From Mya arenaria (taxonomy: Eukaryota > Mollusca > Bivalvia > Myida > Myidae): 64,000 nt of DNA. Shown piece after piece: positions 10,901 through 57,600 of this stretch. The first letter of the stretch is position 1. Every line of letters starts with the position of its first letter. Position numbers and translations under genes: made by a program. The notes under the pieces are model-generated. The model saw only the letters and a program-made list of their open reading frames with translations. It did not search any database and was not told where the DNA came from. Location: positions 885,001-949,000 of the forward strand of contig NC_069135.1 in the NCBI RefSeq assembly GCF_026914265.1. The letters run 5' to 3'.

Positions 10901-13900
10901 AAAACGCATAGCTATAATTAACAAACTGTATATTTTGTAAAAATGTTCCCGTCTTATATCTAAATAGTCAGCGCAAAATCTATTACAGACAAGTATTACT
11001 GTGGAAATTAAAGAACTATCTCAAACAGTTGCGGTCCATTCTTTCAACACCAGTTCCCTTGTGATAGGTAAAAACTTCCTGGATGCTTTTCCCCACATGC
11101 TCCCAGAATCAACCGTTGGGGGAACCAGGTACACGTTTTCTACCCTTACTAAGTCATAGTATTTTACCACAATCGAGCTGCCCTGCGTTCTGTTTCTTTT
11201 TCGTTAGCCTGACAGTCACTCACATCATCATTTTTTTTTATCCCTGTTATATCGCTGCAAGCGCGAAACCAACTCGGACTAGTTAGCTATCGTGAGCGTC
11301 TGTTAGCGTTACTTAAACACAGGGCAGTAGGAATACCAGTACTCTACTTGACAATTATATTTTCACAAATAATTATCCTCTTGATGAAATTAAAGTGTGT
11401 GTTTTAACATTTTGATTCAGTTTGACCATCGAAGTGTTGTCATGGTGCGCAAACTGTCACCATGGAAACCAATGCGAGTCGAATTCAGTATCTTGTGACC
11501 CGGGTGTCACGTTGGTAAACCCGTCTTGCTCAGGTATTTTATATACAAAGTCAAATAATATAGCTGGCTTCATGCAAAACTAAAACTATCTTTCTTGTTC
11601 ATGTCATGGTTTTTGTTTTTTTTTAATCTGGTTTATTTCCCTCCATAATTTGACAAGCATTATTTCAGCCCAGGTAAAATGTGAAAACGGAGGTTCATGT
11701 GTTGGGAACGAAGCTTGCGCGTGCGCACACGGTTGGTTCGGTCCAACGTGCAGCGTTGATGTTGACCAGTGCTCCCTGGGCGCATGTCAGCACGCGGACA
11801 CTTGCGACAATCAGCCAGGTTCCTTTAATTGCACGTGCTCCCCAGGGTTTATCGGGGAGTTTTGTGACGTGGATATTGACGAGTGCACGAGTTACCCGTG
11901 TCGCGATGGTTCTGTTTGTTTGAACACGCTTGGCAGCTACGCGTGCGTGTGCGTCAACGGAACGATCGGTCAGAACTGTGGAGGACTACTTGACTTTTGC
12001 CTTAGTGACCCGTGCAGTAACGGAGGCACATGCAGCAGCAGTGCTTACAACTTCACGTGCACGTGTACGGCGGGTTGGACCGGCAGCACGTGTCAGGGCG
12101 ACATCGATGAATGTCAGAGCACTAACATTTGTCAAAACGGTGGCACGTGTCTCAACACTGACGGCAGTTACACGTGTCAGTGTCTCATTGGATACACCGG
12201 AGGCTATTGTGAAAGTGACGTCAATGAGTGCTTAAACAACACGTTCTGTTTCAACAATGGATCTTGTAATAACACTAATGGTGGATTTTCATGTGACTGT
12301 TTGCCCGGCTTTAACGGAACACGGTGTGAGATGGAGGTCCACGCGTGTGTGTCTAATCCCTGCATGCACGGACAATGCACGGAGCACGGGGACGTTTACT
12401 CGTGCTCGTGTAATGTGGGTTGGGAGGGGAACAACTGTGACCAGGATATGGACGAGTGCCAGGAGTCAGCACGACCATGTTTACACGGTGGTCAATGTAT
12501 TAACACCATTGGTAAGAATTGCACATGTGGCACCTTAAATTGACGTCTGCATATTGCAACTACTAAGCTGATAATTTAAGTTTTGTCCCTAACACGGACT
12601 CCTTATGGAACGTATATATTGACAAGTTTGATGTTGGCAATCGGGTCGCTTAAAGCAGACACTATTAATGTATTCGGGACGAAAGCAATGGTTGCTAAAG
12701 AAACATAAGTGAAGTAATGGTCATAAAACGTCATGAAAGATGCGCCCACGACAATTCTTAAACGAAAAGAAGTTTGTTTTTTGTAACACATTAAAAATCG
12801 TAAAATTGGACATTTTTATTTTTTGCCCTGTAATAAATATGTCCAAACGATGCGGCTGTTGTACAATTATCATAAGAGTGACATAAAAATATTAACTCAG
12901 TATACATTTCAAAATGTAAGTAACATGAAATAGTATGTACATTGTTTTTCAAAATAAACATGGAATTGTATTATGAAGTACATAATGTTTATGATGGCAG
13001 TTATTTGCAGGAAGTTACAAGTGCACGTGCACGGCGGGATGGACCGGAAATCACTGTGAGTCGGATGTGGACGAGTGTACACGCGCAGGTGTATGCGGAA
13101 ATGGAAAGTGCATAAACAACAACGGCAGCTTTAGGTATTGCTTCTCACTACGGTCATACATGATATCACACCGTTGTCATAGCTTTCGTTTTCGCTGCAT
13201 GTAAAATGAAAAATGATATACTGGTATAGTCGACATGCCATTTTGCTATTAACTAATTGCTTTCTGCTGTTTGTCGCGTTGATGGCCCGCCAATTTCTAG
13301 TTTTCACTTCGAAGTTCTGTCCATCTTTGCCCTACTTGACAAATAGGAATTAGCTAACAGCAAACAGGGGCTTCAAAAGTGGAAGGGGGAAAATTGAAAG
13401 GAAACCCTGGAATTTAGATTTATGCAAAGCATTAAGCAAAAAGCAAAGAGCAAAAATACAACTTTGAAGACAATCTCGGAATAGGCGGTCCACAAGCACG
13501 TATTATTCAGGTTTTATATATAGTTTGATCGATTTCTTAAAAGGCACAAAATTGTCCCATAATCAGTAAAATTATTTTTATTTATGTTCCCGTTACCAAA
13601 GGATTTAATGAACCAGTTATAAATACCATCACACGAAGTAAATCCGTTTTAGTTGTAATTGTGGCATGGGATGGACGGGCGACGCCTGTGACCATGACGT
13701 AGACGAATGTACCACCATGTCTCCGTGCTATAACAACGCCACGTGTCACAATACGAACGGAAGTTACACGTGTACGTGTTCCAACGCATGGACCGGGCTG
13801 GACTGCTCCAATGACGTCGACGACTGCCTCAGTTCCCCGTGCGTTCACGGACTGTGCAATAATCTCGTCGGCGGATTCAACTGTTCTTGTTCTCGGGGAT

Positions 13901-16900
13901 GGACGGGAATTACTTGCGACACGGATATTAACGAATGTCGAAACGGAAGCGTGTGCGAAAACGCAGGCACGTGTAACAACACACTTGGCTCGTTCAACTG
14001 CACTTGTCCTAGTGAATATACTGGAGATACCTGTTCCGTCGACATCAATGAATGCCTTACTGGAACACCGTGTAATGGGCATGGTGCATGCATCAATGAG
14101 CATGGAGGATTTAGCTGCAACTGCTCGAGCGCTTGGAAAGGGCCAAATTGTGCGGTGGACGCTGATGAATGTATAGATTACGGCGGGAGCCAATCCCTCT
14201 GCAGCAGTCATGGAGCGTGTGTGAATACACATGGTGGTTATGAGTGCCAGTGTGTGTCCGGTTATAGAGGATCTAATTGCTCAAACGATGTTGATGAATG
14301 TCATGACTCCGCTGTTTACCCGTGCTATAATAACGGAAAATGTATAAATACAATGGGCAGTTTTCATTGCAATTGTAATGAGAGATGGACAGGGGACGAT
14401 TGTTCTACCGATGTGAATGAATGCACCGCATCGCCGCCGTGTTTGAATGGAGGCAACTGTACCAACTCAGAGGGAGGATTTGATTGCGCATGCGCCACAG
14501 GATGGGAGGGACAGACCTGTATTCGTGACATCGATGAGTGTGATAACACTCCGTTCCAATGCAAAAATGGTGCAACCTGTGTGAATTCGGAGGGCAGTTT
14601 TTCTTGTGAGTGTGCGAATGGCTGGAGTGGTCCGTTATGTTCAGAAAACATTGATGACTGTGAAAATGTGACATGCGCAAACGGCGGTCAGTGTGAAGAC
14701 AGAGTAAACGCCTTTATGTGCTTTTGCGCACCTGGCTTCGAAGGAAGATACTGTAAGGTGAACATGGACGAGTGTGCCTCCAATCCATGCCTGCACGGCG
14801 GATTGTGTTCTGACCACATCAACTACTACCAATGCGCTTGCCCAGGCGGCTGGGAAGGCACACAGTGTGAGAAGGACGTGGACGAGTGCCGCCTCCATCG
14901 GTGTGGCAGCCACCAGGCCTGCACCAACAACCAAGGCAGCTACACGTGCACAGGGGTCTTGTTTACAACCACCACAACAGCACCCAGCATTGTCGGTAAG
15001 TTACTGCAGTCTGTGAACAGTCCGTCTAAATGATTATGATTTAAACATATCGGCATAAACTAGTCACACGCCATACTGATTTTGTTGCGTATCTTTGTTA
15101 CTCATAATGATTATGAAACAAAAGTTTGGGAAGAGATCCCTTTTGACCAGGAAATGAATGGTTTTCTTGAATAACTTGAGAAATACTGAATATTATTATA
15201 TGAAGTTTTTCAGAGAGAAAGTTAGGCTCCCAATGGAACAATCAGTCCGAAAAAATCGATGTTTTTTATTTAAACGTCGTAAGTGCCCAACATACTCAGT
15301 TAAATCCACAAAAATGACAGTGTACTGTACCAATAATTAGCCAACTTGAGAAAATGCGATTATTTAAAATAACACACAAAATATTTTCTATTTATCAACA
15401 TATGTTATATCTTCTATTACTATAAAATCTAGCATGTTACTCTGTTTGAACGAGCATTTTGGGTTGATACATTTTGTTGGTTTCCCTCGCTGGAACAAAT
15501 GTTATGCAATTTCTATATTGCTTACTTCTAGCTAATTTTCTAATGAAATTTAATTTTATTTGTTGTATTTTGAAGCTTGAATTGAACACAAAATATCATT
15601 TGTATGAAAAACAATCATACTGGAATTGCAAAACAACGATGTTACAAGGGTATACTTGGTATTGGCGAAAAGTGGTCACTTATGAGTATGCTTGTATAAT
15701 TAATAATAAAGTTTGCTAGATGACGTAGCCAACAGTATGCCGTATGATTACAGACGTATTTTCCCTGGAATTTGTCGGCCCTGTTACCGAGGAGCAGTTT
15801 TCGTCGGTACAGTCGGGTATCGAGGGCGTTCTACGTACGATCACGTGTCGAGATTCCACCAGCGTGCACGTCTCCATCGTGAAAAACTCGGTTCAAACGT
15901 ACGTTACGTATGAGGTAGCATCTAATTGCGCGTGTTTTTCTCCAAACATTCCTCTCCTTCTTACAGCGAGCTTGACGATAAATTAACTAGCAATATTAGT
16001 CAAGTTGTGCTTTAATCTGAATCAAACCGCGTAAACATATTTTAATAATTGTTAATGCAATAAAAATTGCTCTTAGATGTGCTGAACAATTCTAAATAAG
16101 ATAAACTGATTTTATTTGCGTGTATTGGGTTTCTTGGTAACATCGAGTGGGTGGATGTTTGAGTGAATGCTAACCCCTAGTGCATGGTTGGGTGCTTGCT
16201 TAACCCCATTAGTTGGGTGCTTAATTGCTATCCATCGGTGGTTGAAAACCCCAGCCGGGTGCTTGCTAACCCCTAGTGGTTGATTGAATGTTAACCCTTA
16301 GTGGTCGGGTACATGCTAAACCCAATTGGTTGGGTGCTTGCTAACCCCTATTGGTCGGGTACTTGCTAAACCCCATTGGTTGGGTGCTTGCTAACTCCTA
16401 GTGGATGAGTGAATTTTTAACCCCTAGTGGTTGAGTGAGAGCTCACCCCTTGTGGACGAGTGAATGTTAACCCCTAGTGGTTGAGTGAGTGCTCACCTCT
16501 AGTGGTTGAGTGAGTGCTCACCCCTAGTGGACGAGTGAATGTTAACCCCTAGTGGTTGAGTGAGTGCTCACCTCTAGTGGTTGAGTGAGTGCTCCCCCCT
16601 TGTGGACGAGTGAATGTTAACCCCTAGTGGTTGAGTGAGTGCTCACCTCTAGTGGTTGAGTGAGTGCTCCCCCCTAGTGGACGAGTGAATGTTAACCCCT
16701 AGTGGTTGAGTGAGTGCTCCCCCCTAGTGGACGGCTGAATGTTAACCCCTAGTGGTTGAGTGAGTGCTCACCTCTAGTGGTTGAGTGAGTGCTCACCCCT
16801 AGTGGACGAGTGAATGTTAACCCCTAGTGGTTGAGTGAGTGCTCACCTCTAGTGGTTGAGTGAATGTTAACCCCTAGTGGTTGAGTGAGTGCTCACCTCT

Positions 16901-33911: not shown

Positions 33912-34002
33912 GCCTCGGTAGCGCAGTAGGTAGCGCGTCAGTCTCATAATCAATGATCACAGAGCGATCTGAAGGTCGTGAGTTCGATCCTCACCCGGGG
34001 CA
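33912..34002 (+). tRNA. tRNA-Met(CAT), elongator type, with an 18-nt intron
   Basis: The cloverleaf is complete: acceptor GCCTCGG (33912-33918) pairs with CCGGGGC (33995-34001), discriminator A34002; A box TAGCGCAGTAGG; anticodon stem TCAGT/TCTGA; anticodon CAT at 33945-33947; T arm GTGAG-TTCGATC-CTCAC. Compared with the animal elongator tRNA-Met consensus, 18 extra bases (33949-33966, ATCAATGATCACAGAGCG) sit after position 37, the canonical tRNA intron site. Without them the tRNA is 73 nt. It lies 200 bp upstream of COG6 on the opposite strand. Confidence 0.92.
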
Positions 34003-35999
34003 TAACTTTTTCACGTTTCCTACAAACATTCCCATATCGACACTCCAATATGAATTTTATACTTCCAAATTTATAAATCCACACACTTTAACCTTTTGTT
34101 AACACTTATGTATTCTCATTTTACGAATATCAAAGTAATTGGCAAAAGTCAACCGCACATGCATGTTTATTAAACAAGATGTCATTGACGTGGTAACCTT
34201 TCAAGTTATCATACATGTATTTATTCAAAATTATTTGAAATGCACAGTAAGACTTACTATATCTAAAATGCATTCCTATCGCCCACATAACTTTTATTAA
34301 TTTACGTGTTTCCATAAATCGCAAACTCATGTATATTGTGATATCCTTTAATTGTGCGACCTAAAACACTTCACATAATAAAAATCTGACCGTGTCTAAA
34401 TTTCGCAGTATGGACTGGTCCATATAATTGAGGCGGAATGGAGAATTTAACCTCTCACGAAAACGTAAGTTTTTTGTACCATGTAAACACATTCATACAA
34501 GGTAACATGTACTTAAATTTCCAGGTGAGATTATTTTTTTTGCTTCATAATATAGTTTCATTCCATGTGAAATTCACTGGATCCTGCTTGCATTGAGAAT
34601 GTTACCACCCCTGCGATGTGTAGATGTAGACTCATCCTGCCCGAGCAGCTGAAATGCGCGGGAAATATCGGTGTGTGGGATGCTGCGCAATCCACGGACT
34701 AGGAGGCAATATTCTAAAAATAGATTCACCGATAAACGCTGTACGATCTGGGGCCGTCTTAATAAAGCTGTCAGAACTATTCTGGGGGTAATAGTTTCAT
34801 TATTTTGCTACATATTTGAATGAACTGAACTTTTGCCACACATTGTCGAGAAATCATTTTTTTAAAAAGATCTTAATGTGTTGCCATTTGTGATGTAAAT
34901 ATAGATTTTTGAATTCATGACTAAATTCATTTATTACAACGAGCCCATGGACTCTGTCCACGATCTGGGACAATTAACCAGCCACGATAGACTTGCATTA
35001 GGTTTATTAATGACGTAGGGAGTACCCGGACAAAAACATTATACCATGACGTACGGTAGAATGGAACAAGTAATGCTCTGTCAAAAATTTATTTGAATAC
35101 AGTGATTACTTTGGTACGTTTTCATTCCAAAATTCCAAAAATTGAACAAATGTATCAAAATAAGACGCGAATAAAAATTATGATCTGTGCGCCAAACACA
35201 ATTAAAATCACGACATGATGTAGTATGCATGTTTTCGAAGAATAGCTAGGGACCTAGACGCTACCATATAGACTACATGCAACCCGGATTTAAATAAAAA
35301 AGTTTCATGTCTGTCGATATGCCATCAAATAAAGGATGTTTACATTCATTCCTTTATAACATGCTGTACTTTGTTAGGTACAGCACTAAATTTTATCCCT
35401 TTTAAACACTTTGCATTAGTAAGGACTTACTGTCGAAGGGGTTAATTCATAATTATCATGTTCTTTATACCGTTCTATCTCTGTACGAACCAGATACTAC
35501 CGTCCGTTTGCAAGAACACAGAAGAGAATTATCTAAAAAATGTGAGGTCAGTGCCTCAGGTCGTGTTTACAAGCGAAAACGAACAACTTGTAACGCCTTT
35601 ATAGAGAATCGAGGTATGATAAAATACGCCGCAATGATGATAACTTTCAGGGCTACGTTGAGACCAGAATTAGCATTAATTTAGTAAACATATGAACCGT
35701 AAGTAATTGCATTTCCAGTTAAATTACATACTTTGCCTAAATCAAGTGTTCTATCAGCTGATGATAGTCAATCCTGAAAAATAGCCCGAGGTCTGTTTGA
35801 GTATCACGATCAGGATTTAATGCATTTCTCTAAGCAAAATACACACACGCACGCACGCACGTACGCACACAACACACACACACACACGCTCGCACAATAA
35901 GCTTTTAACTTTGTTACATACGGGTCTTTCTCAAAATATTAATTTGCATGTAGTCGAAACAAATCTACACCCCTGTTAAGCCTAAACGCATCAATATAT
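34003..35999. other. intergenic, no gene seen; AC-rich microsatellite near 35840-35890
   Basis: AT-rich sequence without convincing exons. A (CA)n/(CACG)n tract runs from about 35839 to 35893. The region probably includes distal upstream sequence of COG6 and the tRNA gene. Confidence 0.5.
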
Positions 36000-38900
36000 T
36001 TCGGGCTACTCAGATTCACATATGCTGTGAACAGCCAATGCTCAAATGGTATGACAAAGCAAAGTATTTTAAAGCAGTACCCTCAAGTGTTTAAGGGAAT
36101 AGGAAATATCCCTGGTGCATGCAAAATTAAGGTAAACCATGATGCAAAGCCTGTTGTTCACCCGCCACGTAAAATTCCTGTTGCATTGAAAGACAGATGC
36201 AAAACAGAATTAGATCGAATGGAAAAACTAGGGGTCATAGCTAAGGTCAACGAACCTACAGACTGGGTTAAATCCATGGTTAGTGTAGAAAAGTCTGGGA
36301 ACAAATTAAGAATTTGTTTAGATCCACATGACTTGAACAAAGCAATTTTACGACCACACTATCCGAGAAGGACACTGGACGAAGTATTGCCATTACTTAG
36401 TGGGGCGAAATATTTCACAAAACTTGACGCAAGACTAGGTTACTGGGCAATACGCATTGATGAGGAATCATCATATCTGACAACCTTCAAAACAATATGG
36501 GGTAGATATAGGTATAAAACACTACCTTATGGACTTAGACTAAGTGCGGACGTATTCATTCGCGCCATTGACGAATGTTTAGAAGGTCTAAACGGCGTCT
36601 TTGCAATCGTTGACGACTCGTGTGTATATGGTAGCACACAAGAAGAACATGACCGAAATCTTAAGGCAGTCCTTGAGCGATGTGCACAGAAAGGCGTGAT
36701 ATTGAATGATGACAAAATGGAAGTTGGTATGACTCATATCCAATACTTTGGGCATTTGATCACTTCTTTTGGACTCAAACCAAGTCCAGACAAGATTGAT
36801 GCTATCAGCAACATGCCCCCACCGACAAACAAAGCTGAAGTGCAAACGTTCTTAGGAATGGTCAATTATCCTTCAAGATACGCACCAAAATTGTCAGATG
36901 TTACCAGTCCTTTAAGAGAGTTGCTTGAAAACAAAAATGAATTTTCATGGCAGAAACCACAAGAGGAGTCATTTAACAAGGTGAAAAAAATTCAGACAGT
37001 TGTCAAACAGGACTAGGTTCTACGTTGTTGCAAGAAGGTCAGCCTATAGCATATGTATTAAAATCATTGACATCAAGTCAAAAGAATTATGCGATGATAG
37101 AGCTGGAATGCTTAGGTATATTATTTGGCCTAAAACGTCACCATGACTGGGTTTATGGACGTAAGGTCATAGTTGAAATTGATCATATGCCGCTTATACC
37201 GATATTCAAGAAAAACTTGAATAATGCTCCAGCAAGGCTGCAACGCATGCTTTTACAAATGCAGCGTTATAACATTGAAGTCAAATATCGACCGGGCAAG
37301 GAAATACCTATTCCTGATACGTTATCAAGGAAATCGGTACCTGTTACATGCCCAAGTCTGACTGAAAACATTGACATACAGGTCAATATGGTTATGGCTA
37401 GTTTACCGATAAGTGATCGGAAAATGACAGGAATTAGGACAGAGACAGACAAAGACTCACAACTTGTACCATTGAAACAAGTTATTTTACAAGGTTGGCC
37501 TAACAACAGAAAGAATTGTAGGTCAGAAATAATTGACTACTGGAATCATAGAGATGAACTGACGGTAGTTGATGGACTCATTTTGAAGGGAAACAAAGTT
37601 GTTATACCAAGTTCTCTTATATATTATATTCTCTTTATTTCCACCATTACAGTGATTAATTATATAAATAATACAAATTATATAAATAGTACAAGTGTTA
37701 CCCATAATAAACAGTCATAGAAATATCATAAATTATATGCAATATCACATACATCCCATGAAGAAATTATAACATTATTACACACTCTCAAACACAATCA
37801 TACTAGTATTTGGTGACAAAAAAGTAAGAACATTTATATAATATTAAACTTTATGCAAAGGAAATATAGGAAAAAGAGTACTCGTTTATCGTAAAAAGGC
37901 AATGGCTAGAGTAGAGAAGTTTAGGTTAATAATGGTGTTGTTGATAAGGTAGATTTGCCGAATACCTTAAATTGGTGATGATTTGGCAAGAGATGATAAC
38001 TGTAGAAATAATAATAGATGAGTTAGGCACTAATACCCGCACTTGTCGAAACGAAATACAAGTGAAGGTTTTGCGGTGTTAAACATCTACGTTGAAAACA
38101 ATGTAAAAGAAAATAGTATTTGTGATACGTCTCACTTTAATTAGAGTGGTTTGATGTTGGTATGGAAGAATGGTTTAAATTCCCATAATGATTTAATTAG
38201 TAATATTAAAATATTTGTAATTACCAAATTAAAAATAGAAATAATAAAAGAGGAAATATGTTCCTGACAAACAAATTGCTTTACATTATTATAGAGCAAA
38301 CAAAAACAGAGCACAATATTTAGTTGCTAATGAGATCAGCTAAATATGAATTGTTAAATTGTTAAGCTTATTCAATGTACGAACAAACATGTAAAACATG
38401 TAACATGTATTTAATGTGAAGAATATTTCATATCAACATAATGCAAAAACAAGCATTTATAAGGTGATACGTCTTTCAGAGTTTTAGACTGTGATCTAGT
38501 CAATATACAGTTTGCAATAGTAACATTGTAACATCTTAGTCTATTTCTCCACGGATTACTGATGATACGTATTTGCACACATCATTTATATATGTCTGTT
38601 CCATATGGTGGTCAAGTGTATGTAGCGTTCGTTCACTAAACATATGTGATATAATATCAACGTCTGACCCGGCGCACACTATGGGATGTTTATCAGTTCG
38701 TTCCTTGATTGGTTGAAATAGTTTCACGAATTGATCCTGTGATCACAAACATTGTCTGTAACAACATTGCATCTTCTGCACAACGATCGAGCGTTTGTCC
38801 GCGTGTCCGTCAGTAAACGAATCACGACTGTGGCGTTGCGTACTTCAGTCGGGGAGTCGGCGGCGGCCCATATAGACGCCCTTCTAGGAAGTGGATGGAC

Positions 38901-42640: not shown

Positions 42641-45600
42641 GTCTCACAGTGTGTGTGATGCAGGGCCACTTCCTCCAGGGCCACAAAGTCCAGGGGGCTA
42701 ACACGATCTGCACCCATCTGGCTGTCTAAATATACAAGAGGTTGGATATCATTAGAAACAGAGTATAAACAGGTGTAAAGGTCATCTTTATTCAATTGTG
42801 GTATGAATATTTAGTTCACTGTCATAAGACGATAAAATATTTCACTGCTCTTACTAGTTTTTTCTAGATGCCTGAAGAAAGCTGCAAGGGGCCGGAAAGA
42901 GACCTCCTCTATGATGCTGTTCCTCCTTGCCTCGGTCAATGTGTCTATAATAAAAATGTTAACTTGTCTACAATATCAATGTTATTGTGTCTTTAATGAA
43001 ATGTTACTGTGCATGCAATAGAAATGAAAGCATGTCTACAACATCAATGTTTCAGGGTCTGCAATAAGATTGAAAGCATGTCTACAATATCTATGTTATA
43101 GTGTCTACAATATCAATGACAGCATGTCTACAATATCAATGACTGCATGTCTACACTATCAATGACAGCATGTCTACAATATCAATGACAGCATGTCTAC
43201 AATATCAATGACAGCATGTCTACAATATCAATGACAGCATGTCTACAATATCAATGACAGCATGTCTACAATATCAATGACAGCATGGCTACAATATCGA
43301 TGTTTTGGTGTCTGCAATAGAAATGAAAGAATGTCTACAATATCAATGACAGCATGTCTACAATATTGATGTTATGGCTTTCTTATAAACACTGGTCGAG
43401 ATTGGATAAGAAATCTCAAGTAGGGGAGCAAAAACACGAATTTGGCCAATAAACATTATATCCAAGATTTGATAAGAAATGTGTGAGTTTTAAGAATGAA
43501 CATGTAAGTGTGACACCACAAAAGCGGCTGCTGTCGACAACATGATCCCTATATGTCTGCAGTTAATATGCACATGACATAAGAAGCAGTCCGAACTAGA
43601 ATATAGGGGAATTAGCCTATTACTTCTGATTGAGTCCATGCTAGCAGCCTCAGTAGTAGAAGGCCTGTGTTCAGCAAGGATCTTGTCCACATGCTTGTGT
43701 GCCAGGTACGTGCTGCACGTGACATGGTCCCACAGTCTGTAACACTCCTCCCCAGCCCTTAGCGGCAGGCGGGAAATCAGGGAATGCTTTAAGCCAACAT
43801 ACTCCTCATTGTCAGGTAGCTCTGTGGAAAGGGTCGAGTTTAAGGTGTTGAACATATATATTCATCGAAGAATGACTATATCTCAGCTGGCATGATTGAA
43901 TGTAACAAAATGGGATGACGTGTGATTCTACTTGCATTGATTATTGGTGAACAATATGCTTGTGATAATGTTTAGAATTTAACCTGCTCAATAAAAATAT
44001 AACATACAAACTTGCTCATTTAATGTTCACCAATGAATTTCATAGAAGCTCTAACCTTTCAGCAGCTGTGCCATAAAGTCACCTGTGAGCTGCAGCACTC
44101 CATGGTCAACATATTGAAGGAACATTCTGTAAAACATTACAGCAAATACTAAACAAATAGTACTATTTTGTTAAATCAGTGTACATAAGCACTTCTGCTG
44201 TTCTGAAGTAAAAGGATATGAACTAGGGGTCAAATATCACTAACCTTAAGCATACGGCACAAAAGGATAGGGATGTTTGTTAACCATCAAGACAGGTTGG
44301 AGTGTAGGGGTCAGATGTCACAAAGAAAAAGTGCAGAACTCAAAAGGTGGGGGTTAACCATGGAGACGGGCATGCATGAAAAGGTCAGAGGTCACTTTCC
44401 TGAGGTATAGAGCGTGGAAGGCAAGGGATATTAGGTAACCATGGAGACAGGCATGCACCGAGAGGGTTGAGGTCATTTACCTGAAGTTGAGCACATGGAA
44501 GCCAAGGGAGATTAGGTATCCATGGAAACAGGCAAGAATAGGGAAGTAGAGGTCAGAGGTCACTTACCTAAAGTGTATATCATGGATGGCAAGTGAGGTT
44601 AGGTAACCATGCTAATAAATGACAGGACAGGATGGTTAAGGTCACTTACCTGAAATGAAGAGCACGAAAGGCAAGGGAGGTAAGGTAACCATGGAGACGG
44701 GCCGGCACAGGAAAGAAGAGGTCAGATGTCACCGTCACATAGCGATCCAGCAACTGGAACAACTCATATTCATCCAGACCTCCTTTCATTGCCCTGTAAG
44801 GCAGAGAGTAGGTACACATTAACATTTATATTCCAAGCCATCAATGTTCTGTACACATATACATCTATATTCCAAGCCATCAATGTTCTGTACACATATA
44901 CATCTATATTCCAAGCCATCAATGATATTAATACAGTGGTCATAAGAATTGATTTCTTTTATGCTTTTGACATGTCTTATGATGAATTACTAATGCTACA
45001 ACATACATGTGTAAAGAATTTTAGAACAAGATTAGGTAATCCATTTATACATTTAATCTGGGCTGGTTCCCATGGTATGTTATTTAATGCTTATTGCATT
45101 TAAGGTGTAAGGTTTATCCGTAATATTTGTGGACACTTGAAAGTATCAAAATGATAACAAACATAAAAACTCATTCATCTGTCATTAAATGGGACATATT
45201 AAAGGAGTTAATATTTTAATAAGTTCCGAATTAAGGGTATGCTCTACTGGCATGGCTCTTTTGGTCATTTTCAATTCAAAGCATGGAATCATATGCTTGA
45301 AGTGGAGTCAGTCACTACCATAACAGGGATGTGATTGACCCTCAGGGGGGCTTTAAGATAAAATAGGAGTCAAAGGGGATGAAGCACCCTGCTGCAGAAA
45401 CAAAACTGTTTCTATTTTGAGGGCTCTTACGAAGCAAACTGGAGTGTCTATATATACATCAAATAAAATAACAACCAATAGCAACCAATTAATTTTCTAA
45501 ATCAGCTTAAAATTTAAAAGAAACATTTTTTATTTTGTTTATTTTGGTCCCTTGTGCCATTAGATCCGCTAACAAATCACTTCCCTGAAAATAACACAAC

Positions 45601-51600: not shown

Positions 51601-54600
51601 CAACTATTGCAACATTTAAGAAACAGGATGAAATATATATTTCAGGTTATGAATGATTTATTTATTTCCAGTTCTTCAAATATGCGCTTAATCTCTTAAA
51701 ATACACTGAACATTAAGACCTTTCCAAGATCCATCGAAAACCTACTTACCAATAAGGAATTCTTTCATCATAGTTGGGACCTCTGGACTGGCTATGTCAT
51801 TGCAGATCACAGAAAATAGCTGAAATGATAAAAAAAATATATAAATTTGTAAGAAACCTGCTCATTTTGTTAAAGGCTGCACTATATATCAGCATATGTG
51901 TACTATTTTAATGGAAAAAGCTTGTGTTTCTTTAATAATTATAATTGGTCACTTTCACACATATGTACATAAACAAGTACAATATTGTTTATCATGTAGG
52001 TACATGAACAACTAAACTATGAACTTTTACTTTATACAGTAAAACTACGAATGTTTGAGAACTGGCAATTGGTTGAGGTTGAGGCTTAGTCCCGACCATT
52101 ATTCCTTCTTTTTTAATAAAGGATCTAAACCTAAGTATATTGAGAACTAAAGTACCATTGCTAGTCCCAAATACACAAATCATGTGCAAAATGTAATGAA
52201 TACCTAGAAGTAATAATTTCACACATATACCTGAAGCGCGTTCCAAAAAAAACAAACATATGCCAGGTGTTAAAATGTTCACATGTTGTGAAAATGGCAA
52301 TGTTTTTGTGATATAAAACACATGTCACTATATCTAGTTACATTTTACTTCAGAAATTCGTTCCTGATTATGATTATCGTTTCCACCCGTGAAATTATCA
52401 CGGCACATGAGGGCGATAACGGCATAATTACCCGACAAAGAAAGGCATCCCTTACGTCAATTTCACGACAAAATATGGCTGAATATGGTAAAAATTAACA
52501 CAATGAAAGCTTTTTAATGAATTTAAATTTTGGGTTAAAATAAACCTTGCTTTTTATTCGCTGCTTTGTTTCACTTTTACATCTTAATATTTAGTATACC
52601 ACATCCTTTCAACACATGAGCATATTCCACAACGCAATACATAAACAGTGCTGAAGTCAACAATCGGTATGACGACTTCAAACTTCAAAAATACATTTCA
52701 TAGTGTACAAAAATGGTAACTTGGGTAGTTCCAAGCATTGGATAATTGGAGGTTTTAGCTCGGGACCCAACGTCCTTGAATGATCTCAGTTTTACTGTAC
52801 CTGTATTTGGTACTTACCTGTTTGACAAGTTCAAATCCCTTCTGCCTGAGGATGGCGTAGTGTAGCAGAGCAGTACGTGTCATGGTCATACTACAATGAC
52901 TAAATATGTCCACCAGCCTGTCTGGATCTATGGTCACAGAGTACACACATCGCGATCTCCGGTCCAGAAGATATGCACCTGTTCCACAGTGCATAGATTA
53001 TATTAGGAAGATAAGCAATCTCATGGTACTGCACAAAACAATATAATACCAGGTTATAGAATTCAAGTATAATTATACAGTCAGATCAACATAACAAAGT
53101 TGAATAATCATATGTTCTGTTGTGTTATTCTTTGGCAACCAAGTACTGTTTTAATCATTACATACCAGTTCCTTCATTGCCAATGATTTTCAGTGCAGTA
53201 TTTGAAACAAATGAAAACTGCTCCATCCTAGACTCAAGAACAGGAATGAGCTCTTCGGCTGATGCGCCACTGATACTTGCATCTGACTGGTCACTTTTCC
53301 TGGAGTTTGATTGGTTATTTTTCCTAAAATCTGATTGGTCATGTCTCCTGCTATCTGATTGGTCATCACTTCTAGTACCAGTGCTTCTCTCACTGCCACC
53401 TGTCTCCTCATCCTCTATCCCTTCTTCACAGGATTTACCTGGAAATTAATTCTGACATTATATTGTGGAATTTACAGTTTCATTATTTTTGATAATTCCT
53501 ACTCAGCATAATCTTGATTTGTGCTTCTGATAGATAAAAATCCCCTTTTTTACTTAAAAACAACAGTTGTCAGAGGAAATACCACAATCCACTAAATACA
53601 GGCTGGTGTGATGATACTAGGTAAATGAGTGCACATGGTTAAACCATTATGCTGCAATGTGTACCAAGTTTTATGTTAATATCTTTGATAGTTTTCAAAT
53701 TATGGCCATCAATAAAAAGGTTGCATGTACTAGTATACTCAGGGCTTCTAAAAGTAAATAAAAAAATAAATATATTTTGCATATCTTATTTCCGTACACC
53801 CAAATGTTAATTTAATTTATAGAAAGCATTACTTACTGGGTAGCAAGAAATGATTGCAAGGTTCAAACTCTATGGAAACTGCTACTTACTGTGCAGCAAG
53901 ATATGATTGCAAGGTTCATACTCTGTGGAGAGCGATACTAACTGTGCAGCAAGATATGATTGCAAGGTTCATACTCTATGGAAACTGCTACTTACTGTGC
54001 AGTTAGATATGATTGCAAGGTTCAAACTCTATGGAAACTGCTACTTACTGTGCAGCAAGATATGATTGCAAGGTTCAAACTCTATGGAAACTGCTACTTA
54101 CTGTGCAGCAAGATATGGTTGCAAGGTTCATACTCTATAGAGTGCTACTTACTGTCTAGCAAGATATGGTTGCAAGGTTCATACTCTATGGAGAGTGCTA
54201 CTTACTGTCGGCAAGATATGATTGCAAAGTTCATACTCTATGGAGACCTCTACTTACTGTGTAGCAAGATATGATTGCAAGGTTCATACTCTATGGAGAC
54301 CTTTACTTACTGTGTAGCAAGATATAATTGCAAGGTTCATACTCTATGTAGACCTCTACTTACTGTGCAGCAAGATATGGTTGCAAGGTTCATACTCTAT
54401 ATAGACCTTTACTTACTGTGCAGCAAGATATGGTTGCAAGGTTCATACTCTATGTAGACCTCTACTTACTGTGCAGCAAGATATGGTTGCAAGGTTCATA
54501 CTCGATGTAGACCTCTACTTACTGTGCAGCAAGATATGGTTGCAAGGTTCATACTCTATGTAGACCTCTACTTACTGTGCAGCAAGATATGGTTGCAAGG

Positions 54601-57600
54601 TTCATACTCTATGTAGACCTCTACTTACTGTGCAGCAAGATATGGTTGCAAGGTTCATACTCTATGTAGACCTCTACTTACTGTGCAGCAAGATATGGTT
54701 GCAAGGTTCATACTCTATGGAGACCTCTACTTACTGTGCAGCAAGATATGGTTGCAAGGTTCATACTCTATGTAGACCTCTACTTACTGTGCAGCAAGAT
54801 ATGGTTGCAAGGTTCATACTCTATGGAGACATTGAGTAAGTGAGCAAAGTACCCTGGTAACATTACGAGAATCTGGTCTCCTGAAAAAAGTTTATTCATT
54901 GTTTTACACAACAACAGATGCTTTCTTGTATCTTCAGAGATTAGATATTATACATACATTTGACTCAAACAAATGAAATACTGTCATGATGCACAGGTTT
55001 TGTGGATAATAAGTTTATTATAATGTTAAGCTTTCAATTTGCATAATTATTTGACTACATCTTGTTGCTACTCTTTTAAAACCGCTCAGTGAAATTTCGC
55101 ACAAATAAAACTTATTTGTTAAAAGGGACTGTGGTGCCTTGCTGTCTGTTCTGCAGAAATACTGGAGTAGATAGCTGATCGAAATGCTACATGTATACTT
55201 ATCATGTGAAAAGTTTTTGAAAAAGTAGTGGTAGATAATTTGTCTATGAAAATTGTGTATAATTAAAATTGTTATACATGTATATGTTTCAACTTATTTT
55301 TAGTTAGTTTTGAACTGCAAAATGTTGATTTCTTTTTTACTTTTTTAAGATTCATGGAGTGGTTGGTGAATTATAGATTTAATGGTATGCATGCAAAAGC
55401 TTAGACACAATTTCTAAGTAAAAAAGGCCAGACTTTGCATTAAATAATCCTAGAGTTACTGAACTTTCTTAATTTAGTTGGTCTGTTGTCTGTGAAGGGT
55501 TGTTTTAAGACTCAGTCAAACACATTGAGTGGTTGGTGAGTTATTGACTGATATGGTAATTGCATGCAAATCTTCAACAATAATTTCTGTTTGGAAAAGG
55601 ATCATTATTTGCATATATCAATCTTATTAATCCATTGTCTGTAAAGCTTTTTTAAAATTTCAATCAAACAAAATGTCAGTGGAATGTAAGATGTGCACTT
55701 GATGGTGTTTGCACACAAAATTTTAACCACAATTTACATGTCAAACTAGGGCCATTACTTGCATTGTATCATGGAAGATTGACCCTACTTACTTAATTAA
55801 GGTCTGTTGACAGTGAAACTTTGTTGAAGTTTCAATTAATTACATTAATTGGTGGTCAGATAGGGACTCAATGATACTTGGAAAAAACTTAAACCAGAAT
55901 TTCTAAGACGTCCAACAAGGGCCATAATTTGCATTATATTCAAGGTAGAGTTATATTACACTTTGATGGCTGGGAAGCTTTGTAAAAGGTAGTAATAAAA
56001 TATAATATGTGGGGACAGAGCTATGCACTTAAGTACTTGCACATAAAATTAAGACAGAATTACCAGACAAATAAGGTTCATAATTTGCATTATATTCAAC
56101 CTAGAGTGGTCTTAGGTCATTCTTTTAGTTAGTGTGGTTACTGGGAATCCTAGTATAAAGTATTAATCAAAAACATCAAGTGGTAACAGAGATTATGGCC
56201 TTGGTAATAAATCGACATTAATGCCATGATGAGAACAAAAGCTCTCCTTATTCTTTGAAAAGTCAAGTTAAAAAATGCATGTGAAATGTGCACATGTAAT
56301 TTTTTAAGCTTATTTTTTATGGGAAACTCGGATTTGATTGTTCCTTTCATTGAGTGGTAACACACTTTTGTTATACTTGAGTAAATAGAATGCTGAGTTA
56401 AATAAAATATTGAGTATAAAAATATTCAGTTTAAACTGAAATCACTTTACCGGTACATGTTTTTTCAAAAACAGTGACATTCTTCAACTTACAGTGAAGC
56501 CAAAAATTGATCAGTATGTAGCCTTTCAATTTGTTATTTACTCCAGTATTTTTGGCAGAAAGGAAACAGTCTTGTGGACATGTCTTACCTAGCCAGGAGA
56601 AGGCAACTACAGCTCTCCTCACCACAGCAGCTGGTATGTGAGACACGCAACCATGGATGGTACTGGCTGAAACAATAAAAAGTAATATCCATCAAGAACT
56701 TATGAGAGTAACTTACATGTTCAAGCTTCAATAACTTTGGTACTTTTTAAACTTTTTAATTTATCACAAATATAATGCTTTTTTAATATTCATAGGTTAA
56801 TTTCAGCATTGCCTTTGCAAATCTGAGGTAAAATAAAAACATTGACCAATAATCACCCACCATGATGAACCATGCAAATGTAGTAGTTGATTTCTGTTGA
56901 CTCACTCTCAGAGCTGGAACTGCTTCCCTGTAATATGATTCAAATGGATAACTAGAGATTGCCTTTTTGAAAAAGAGCTTGTCACCCCTATTGTCTGGTC
57001 ATAGCTGAGAAAAAATCAATGAGGGACATGAAATTTGTTTCAAACCTATGGACAGGAGACAAATCAACAGTTACCTTGAAGTTTGGCCTTATTCATCCAT
57101 ATTCAGTAGTGAACATTTACTGCATAAGATCAGGGATCAAACTCATTTTTTAATTGAAGGTCACTGTGACATTGACTTACTGTTTGTGTTAGATGTCTTA
57201 TAAGCTATCCCCTATACACCCCCTTAAGTTCTACGATTGTCAGTTTACGATTGCCGATGACCATCTATAAATGAGTTAAGTTACTTTTTTCAAGTTATGC
57301 TCCGGACAAGAAAAAAGTAACAAAGGGCAATAACTCTGTAATTGGCTGAAATAGAATTGCGGTTCCTGTCCACTGCACTTCCTCTCATTATGATCTATCA
57401 CTGTATGAAGTTTTATTGAATTCCATCCAATAGTTTTCAAGTTATGCTCCATATAAGAAAAAGTAACAAAGGGCAGTAACTCTGTAATTAGCTGAAATAG
57501 AATTGTGGTTCCTGTACACTGCACTTCCTCTCATTATGATCTATCACTGTATGAAGCTTTATTAAATTCCATCCAATAGTTTTCAAGTTATGCTCCGGAC

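Follow-up and report, generated by a model that had tools for sequence, protein, structure and literature searches.

A minisatellite that opens with a splice donor in a GSAP gene of Mya arenaria, and the same build at two more places in the genome

How does an intron come to open with nineteen splice donors in a row, and which of them would be used? The question is raised by a GSAP gene on the reverse strand of the window, that is, the whole stretch of 64,000 nucleotides (nt) of Mya arenaria DNA that was analysed (contig NC_069135.1, positions 885,001 to 949,000). In this gene the end of one exon, here called exon K, and its donor GTAAGT are repeated as a minisatellite with a 53-bp unit (array 1). 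We consider it probable that array 1 was seeded by a chance duplication across the donor and is carried as a tolerated passenger, the first donor being the one mainly used. Repeats of this kind are already known, and array 1 adds a new case to them; two further loci of this genome show the same build.

Array 1 and the end of GSAP exon K

The 3' end of exon K reads ..TTGCTGCACA/GTAAGTAG (the slash marks the exon end here and below), and the 53-bp period starts 43 nt before that junction. Each unit is thus made of the 43-nt tail of exon K and of GTAAGTAGAG, in a 43 + 10 nt layout. When the array was cut at its donors, 19 of them were counted including that of the exon copy, i.e., 18 extra copies stand in the following intron, and the spacing was 53 bp throughout except for one of 52 and one of 51. 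GTAAGT was found at 18 of the 19 donors, with GTTAGT in unit 17, and the context before the donor was CA/GTAAGT in 18 of the 19 units. Counted over 49 nt (tail plus donor), units 1 to 19 differed from exon K at 0, 1, 0, 1, 1, 1, 2, 1, 2, 4, 2, 4, 3, 3, 3, 5, 3, 3 and 6 positions, respectively. The difference from the exon rose with distance (rho 0.85, a value as high in none of 2000 permutations). The original prediction of about 18 further copies of exon end and donor at 53 bp was confirmed by this count, and the comparison of divergence with distance that it had proposed as a check gave the exon-near units as the most exon-like.

A query of two units was searched against the genome (1.216 Gb in 18 contigs) and gave at least 13 matches, a lower bound as are all counts of this word search, in which very common words were skipped. 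All of them lay at the exon K locus, on which ground a dispersed element (introner or transposon-derived satellite) was rejected as a candidate for array 1.

With respect to the gene itself, exon K and exon L (from 53438) are in frame with each other once the intron of 1349 nt between them is removed; about 958 nt of this intron are array. The window holds a match to PF14959 (Pfam GSAP-16) of 30.3 bits, over the cut-off and the sole GSAP-16 match reported genome-wide, and the joined C-terminal peptide of the gene matched the same family with an E value of 8.1e-22. Exon K lies outside this domain and gave no Pfam match, and its coding score in our own exon scan was low (-0.3). When exon K was compared with a stretch of human GSAP, the score was 58, against a maximum of 45 among 2000 shuffles, a likeness that we treat as a lead; the alignment score did not rise when exon L and the next exon were added to the query. 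On the frame, the splice sites and the similarity, we think that exon K is a real exon. The claim that the array starts within a real-looking GSAP exon and carries its donor is supported by the unit list and by the frame.

The consequences of donor choice were followed in silico. Only the first of the 19 donors opens a frame into exon L, and the 18 later ones all lead to a premature stop, in agreement with the prediction that any later donor would give a truncated or decay-prone product. Reading past the first donor does give CAC AGT AAG TAG, as had been noted.

At the level of RNA, the predicted fold of four array 1 units was ordinary (z -0.93, with 38 of 200 shuffles as good), and a special RNA structure of the array was rejected because that fold was no better than those of the shuffles. 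Between 54570 and 54790 on the reverse strand, a CUUGCUG segment could base-pair with the CAGUAAG at another unit's donor, and the donors may be partly covered by such pairing.

Arrays of the same build in GSAP, in cathepsin L and across the genome

The same GSAP gene contains a second array (array 2), which the original prediction had overlooked. The exon at 44793-44650, within the GSAP-16 domain, ends CATTTCAG/GTAAGT, and array 2 consists of this exon copy and five decayed copies of its last ~50 bases with the donor, spaced at 74-87 bp. The decayed copies differ from the exon copy at 12-19 of 58 nt, and the donors read, in order, GTAAGT, GTAAGT, GTAAAT, GAAAGT, lost and GTTAGT. The spliced frame across this intron into the 44126 exon is open. 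We read array 2 as the build of array 1 at an older stage. For divergence against distance rho was 0.61, a value reached in 205 of 2000 permutations; the unit list used for it includes one spurious unit. Several units of array 2 carry AG/GTAAGT or a near form of it, each of which could in principle serve as acceptor and donor at once. In our own list the window has ten tandem arrays, which occupy ~18% of it; chance would place 0.23 donors in a terminal unit, with a probability of 0.02 for two or more, assuming 20 donors in the window, a number that was estimated and not counted.

The third array lies in a cathepsin L gene (locus L047). Its exon TYEEYRANMFGFKSDPDHVRNTLYQSSLSELPAAVDWKAKGYVTEVGNQ (..YVTEVGNQ, up to the junction) had matches to six distinct sequences in the PDB, of which five are cathepsin L, with a best E value of 1.3e-4. 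The donor CAG/GTAAGT heads a 44-bp array of 44 units, including the exon copy, in an intron of 2172 nt, and the exon that follows, GQCGSCWAFTATGALEGQ.. (GQCGSCWAF..), is in frame. Here too divergence rose with distance from the exon (rho 0.46, 1 of 2000 permutations as high). A paralogue on the same contig (L071/L074) differs at 4 of 147 positions in the donor exon and at 2 of 120 in the next exon. Its intron measures 1102 nt and is without the 44-bp array, the only repeat found there by Tandem Repeats Finder (TRF) being one of 79 bp with 2.0 copies. The first 72 bases of that intron nevertheless resemble about 1.5 decayed units (score 74; mean 26 and maximum 45 of 300 block shuffles). Since a near-identical paralogue without the array keeps these ~1.5 decayed units at its donor, the cathepsin L array grew at the exon end. 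The copy numbers of 44 and ~1.5 describe a change between gene copies and not between individuals. A short duplication across the donor probably predated the gene duplication, with later expansion in one copy; alternatively, units may have been lost from the L071/L074 copy. This pair is the best evidence on the birth of such arrays.

The frame behaves alike in the three arrays. Among the 41 exact GTAAGT donors of the cathepsin L array, and among the four counted donors of array 2, only the first opens the frame into the next exon, and every retained-unit reading counted in the three arrays contains a stop. The positions of the features are given in Table 1.

Table 1. Positions of the exons, donor and arrays discussed (window coordinates unless a contig is given).
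Feature	Position	Strand	Basis or remark
GSAP exon K, 93 nt; its 43-nt tail is the repeat source	54788..54880	-	frame into exon L, human GSAP similarity
First donor, GTAAGT	54782..54787	-	alone among the 19 in leaving the frame into exon L open
Array 1	53830..54830	-	TRF: 53-bp unit x 18.9, 93% matches; its first unit holds the exon K tail and the donor
Exon L, predicted; end placed by eye	53166..53438	-	frame
GSAP exon inside the Pfam GSAP-16 domain, ending CAG/GTAAGT	44650..44793	-	PF14959, joined peptide
Array 2, ~81-bp unit	44355..44732 by TRF; last copies reach ~44240	-	TRF, sequence, unit list
GSAP exon after array 2	44056..44126	-	in frame, intron of 523 nt
Cathepsin L exon and array (L047)	contig 8, 32.10 Mb		motif search, PDB matches
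Cathepsin L paralogue (L071/L074)	contig 8, 27.04 Mb		5 Mb from L047

Donor-carrying arrays were sought with three copies of CAGGTAAGT spaced 25-55 bases and with two variants, after which the 5' edges were read; the findings of this search hold among the matches listed, which covered the earlier contigs. Further arrays seemingly start at exon ends, L047 being the firm one. Triple CAGGTAAGT was found 276 times against 395 for the reversed motif, CAGGTGAGT 1011 against 333, AAGGTAAGT 662 against 290, AAGGTGAGT 128 against 219, and GAGGTAAGT 198 against 301. The donor motif was thus below its reversed control in three of the five comparisons and above it in two, a few large arrays dominating the counts, and we make no claim of a general donor enrichment in arrays. 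By eye, 7 distinct triple loci were recognised on C1-C7 for CAGGTAAGT and at least 14 for its reverse, among the matches listed, and the single 9-mer occurred 8209 times against 10355 reversed. On contig 1 the AAGGTAAGT arrays at ~35.0-35.3 Mb and at 44.9-45.2 Mb are mirrored on opposite strands, as in a large inverted duplication.

The exon scan was applied to a sample of 32 donor-array loci (L040-L069, L072 and L073). Six were excluded for a 5' edge or first donor that was unclear or at the end of a piece (L050, L051, L052, L061, L062 and L069), and 26 were scored, with mixed motif types, two related loci (L045 and L046) and one locus at which a donor inside the array was tested (L041). The two GSAP arrays were scored separately and stand outside the 26, array 2 with 18.0 and array 1 with the low value given above. 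A score above 8 was reached by 7 of the 26 arrays (L047, L049, L054, L058, L064, L066 and L068), by 5 of 60 isolated CAGGTAAGT sites, all drawn from a single end of contig 1 (Fisher p 0.029), and by ~83 of 1200 random GTs (6.9%; Fisher p 0.0019), in a comparison made after the fact, the acceptor cut-off of the scan having been relaxed once the array results were known. Two of the isolated sites (L089 and L092) are copies of one sequence, and with 59 sites p was 0.031; for the CAGGTAAGT arrays alone the figure was 3 of 14 (p 0.17). It must be noted that the score was built on general average amino-acid frequencies, and that in L049 the top-scoring frame differs from the one judged likeliest by eye.

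Among the seven high scorers, homology support was obtained for L047 only, from the PDB search. No match over the cut-off was given by Pfam for ten peptides, that of L047 included; the PDB search with the L064 and L066 peptides and an NCBIfam search with four peptides gave no match. By appearance, the 5' edges of L064, L066, L054, L044, L049, L058 and L068 are coding-exon-like, without homology support. Polarity was seen in three of the six arrays tested, namely array 1, L047 and L049 (rho 0.70 in the last, 16 of 2000 permutations as high).

Precedents, donor choice and rival explanations

The original prediction held that a repeat starting in this way at a splice donor belongs to no class yet described. 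This is wrong according to the portions of two reports on human genes that are used here: a 25-bp variable number tandem repeat (VNTR) in intron 18 of ABCA7 includes the exon 18 donor, which forms its first two bases (PMC5954066), and a VNTR of CBS spans an exon end and its donor (PMC2630376). The ABCA7 repeat has 23.7 units in the reference (PMC5954066). Its frameshifting isoforms arise from a cryptic acceptor (14 ± 6%) or from the retention of one unit (2 ± 1%), neither of them dependent on array length, while skipping of exon 19 grows with that length; transcripts with premature stops, including those with one unit retained, increase under translation block (PMC5954066). As in array 1, a tandem array begins at an exon donor with a unit length that is not a multiple of 3, and a retained unit shifts the frame. 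The two differ in the unit, of 25 bp in ABCA7, for which those portions of the report state no exonic tail, and of 53 bp with 43 exonic nt in array 1; they also differ in that ABCA7 is known with RNA and population data and array 1, here, from the sequence of one assembly. As a comparable array, ABCA7 supports the view that the first donor is strongly preferred, and it speaks against simple length-dependent decoying. The choice originally offered, that the array is either ignored by the spliceosome or a regulatory decoy, is incomplete, as it leaves out the mixed outcome of ABCA7, in which about 2 ± 1% of one-unit retention stands beside length-dependent exon skipping.

The CBS repeat, of 31 bp, is written c.1444_1467+7(16_21), which gives 24 exonic and 7 intronic bases in 16-21 copies (PMC2630376). 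Its layout is that of array 1, a unit that straddles the exon-intron junction (24 + 7 against 43 + 10 nt, the latter in 19 copies), in a different gene and with a shorter unit. Lievers et al., in 2001, are said to have found that donors within the CBS repeats are used in splicing, and by the title of their work the VNTR reportedly accompanies reduced CBS activity. Array 1 shows the exon copy first with its donor, an exonic tail and a stop beyond later donors; the splicing of exon K rests on frame and similarity. No molluscan donor-spanning array was recognised by title in a brief literature search, from which absence from print is not claimed.

In the explanation that we prefer, a local tandem duplication of a stretch straddling the GSAP exon end and its donor would have given rise to array 1, which would then have expanded and been partly homogenised beside the exon. 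The exon copy is the first unit, and its donor would give the normal mRNA. The spliceosome would use the first donor in most transcripts, most likely because a short exon of normal size results. Under exon definition a donor that yields a short exon is preferred, whereas among equal tandem donors the intron-proximal one can be favoured. If the genes make full proteins, use of the first donor must be common, because only this donor keeps the frame. A small share of the transcripts would take a neighbouring donor, keep one or more units, run into a stop and decay. For the most part array 1 would be a passenger that the gene tolerates, at some cost to GSAP output or with some tuning of it. Growth at the exon end, the effect on the frame and the recurrence in GSAP and in cathepsin L are shown by the sequence, while donor use, leak, decay and the lack of a selected function are inferred from it.

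Several points weigh against this explanation. The use of the first donor is an assumption. The donor of exon K has A and not G at position -1 and is almost identical to the donors of the other units, so that nothing in the site itself favours the first position. Within the unit, conservation is somewhat higher in the donor hexamer than elsewhere, which is not required of a pure passenger; this signal is weak, with six-base windows conserved at least as well in 12 of 53 cases in array 1, 2 of 44 in the cathepsin L array, 5 of 47 in L054 and 22 of 57 in L044, and it is biased in the last three loci, which were chosen by their donor pattern. L054 and L044 showed no polarity, and in array 2 it did not reach significance. 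In addition, the excess of exon-like starts among arrays (7/26 against 5/60) is weak, and chance birth alone may not explain it. A further-reaching proposal, which we regard as unlikely, is that exon ends are favoured birth sites of minisatellites in this genome, that copies near the exon are kept fresh and that many genes would thereby have a hypermutable row of competing donors, the length of which sets the share of transcripts that decay.

Among the rival explanations, a selected regulatory decoy is unlikely but survives best. The donor row would hold the U1 small nuclear ribonucleoprotein and send a fixed fraction of the transcripts into decay or intron retention, GSAP dose being tuned in this way by the number of copies. 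The stop after each of the 18 later donors, the donor kept in 18 of 19 units, the presence of two such arrays within one gene and the effect of ABCA7 VNTR length on exon 19 skipping (PMC5954066) speak for such a decoy. The donors of array 2, however, have decayed, the cathepsin L paralogue does without an array and one-unit retention in ABCA7 is independent of array length (PMC5954066); the motif counts, below the reversed control in three of five comparisons and above it in two, and the ordinary fold of four units also speak against it.

It is very unlikely that the units remain in the mRNA as coding repeats or mark the birth of an intron by tandem duplication of AGGT. The latter is a described route of intron gain, one case being a 24-bp piece of exon that is repeated in fission yeast (PMC4974935), and the array 2 units with AG/GTAAGT or near forms could act as acceptor and donor at once. 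As in that route, a short stretch with splice signals was duplicated in array 1; the route creates a new intron inside an exon, whereas here an existing intron was lengthened on its donor side. The K-L intron ends at the acceptor 53438, outside the array, the context in array 1 is CA/GTAAGT in 18 of 19 units and not AG/GT, and no new intron was among the results. Coding repeats are opposed by the stop in every counted retained-unit reading of the three arrays.

We give even less credit to the view that exon K is non-coding and array 1 an ordinary intronic minisatellite. This would account for the low coding score and for the lack of a Pfam match on exon K, but exon K joins exon L in frame with a stop right beyond the donor, its similarity to human GSAP exceeds that of all shuffles (58 against 45 at most), and arrays built in this way are also found at a Pfam-supported GSAP exon and in cathepsin L. 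Least probable of all is an assembly artefact, of the copy number or of the entire array; tandem arrays are hard to assemble, but the divergence of the units is ordered away from the exon, unlike an error over identical units, and the build recurs at other loci.

The GSAP and cathepsin L loci offer a natural test of the choice that the spliceosome makes when as many as 41 near-identical donors follow one another, and the cathepsin L pair, with and without the array and with 4/147 exon differences, lends itself directly to comparison. Should the pattern prove common in genomes rich in minisatellites, gene annotation and variation in donor copy number merit attention, as in human ABCA7 and CBS.

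Other features of the window

Long open frames at 11584-15033 on the forward strand, rich in EGF-like repeats by eye, belong to another gene. On the same strand, open frames at 35943-37720 resemble, also by eye, the polyprotein of a Gypsy-type retroelement, and a tRNA-like gene was found at 33912-34002 by Rfam (57.1 bits) and ARAGORN.

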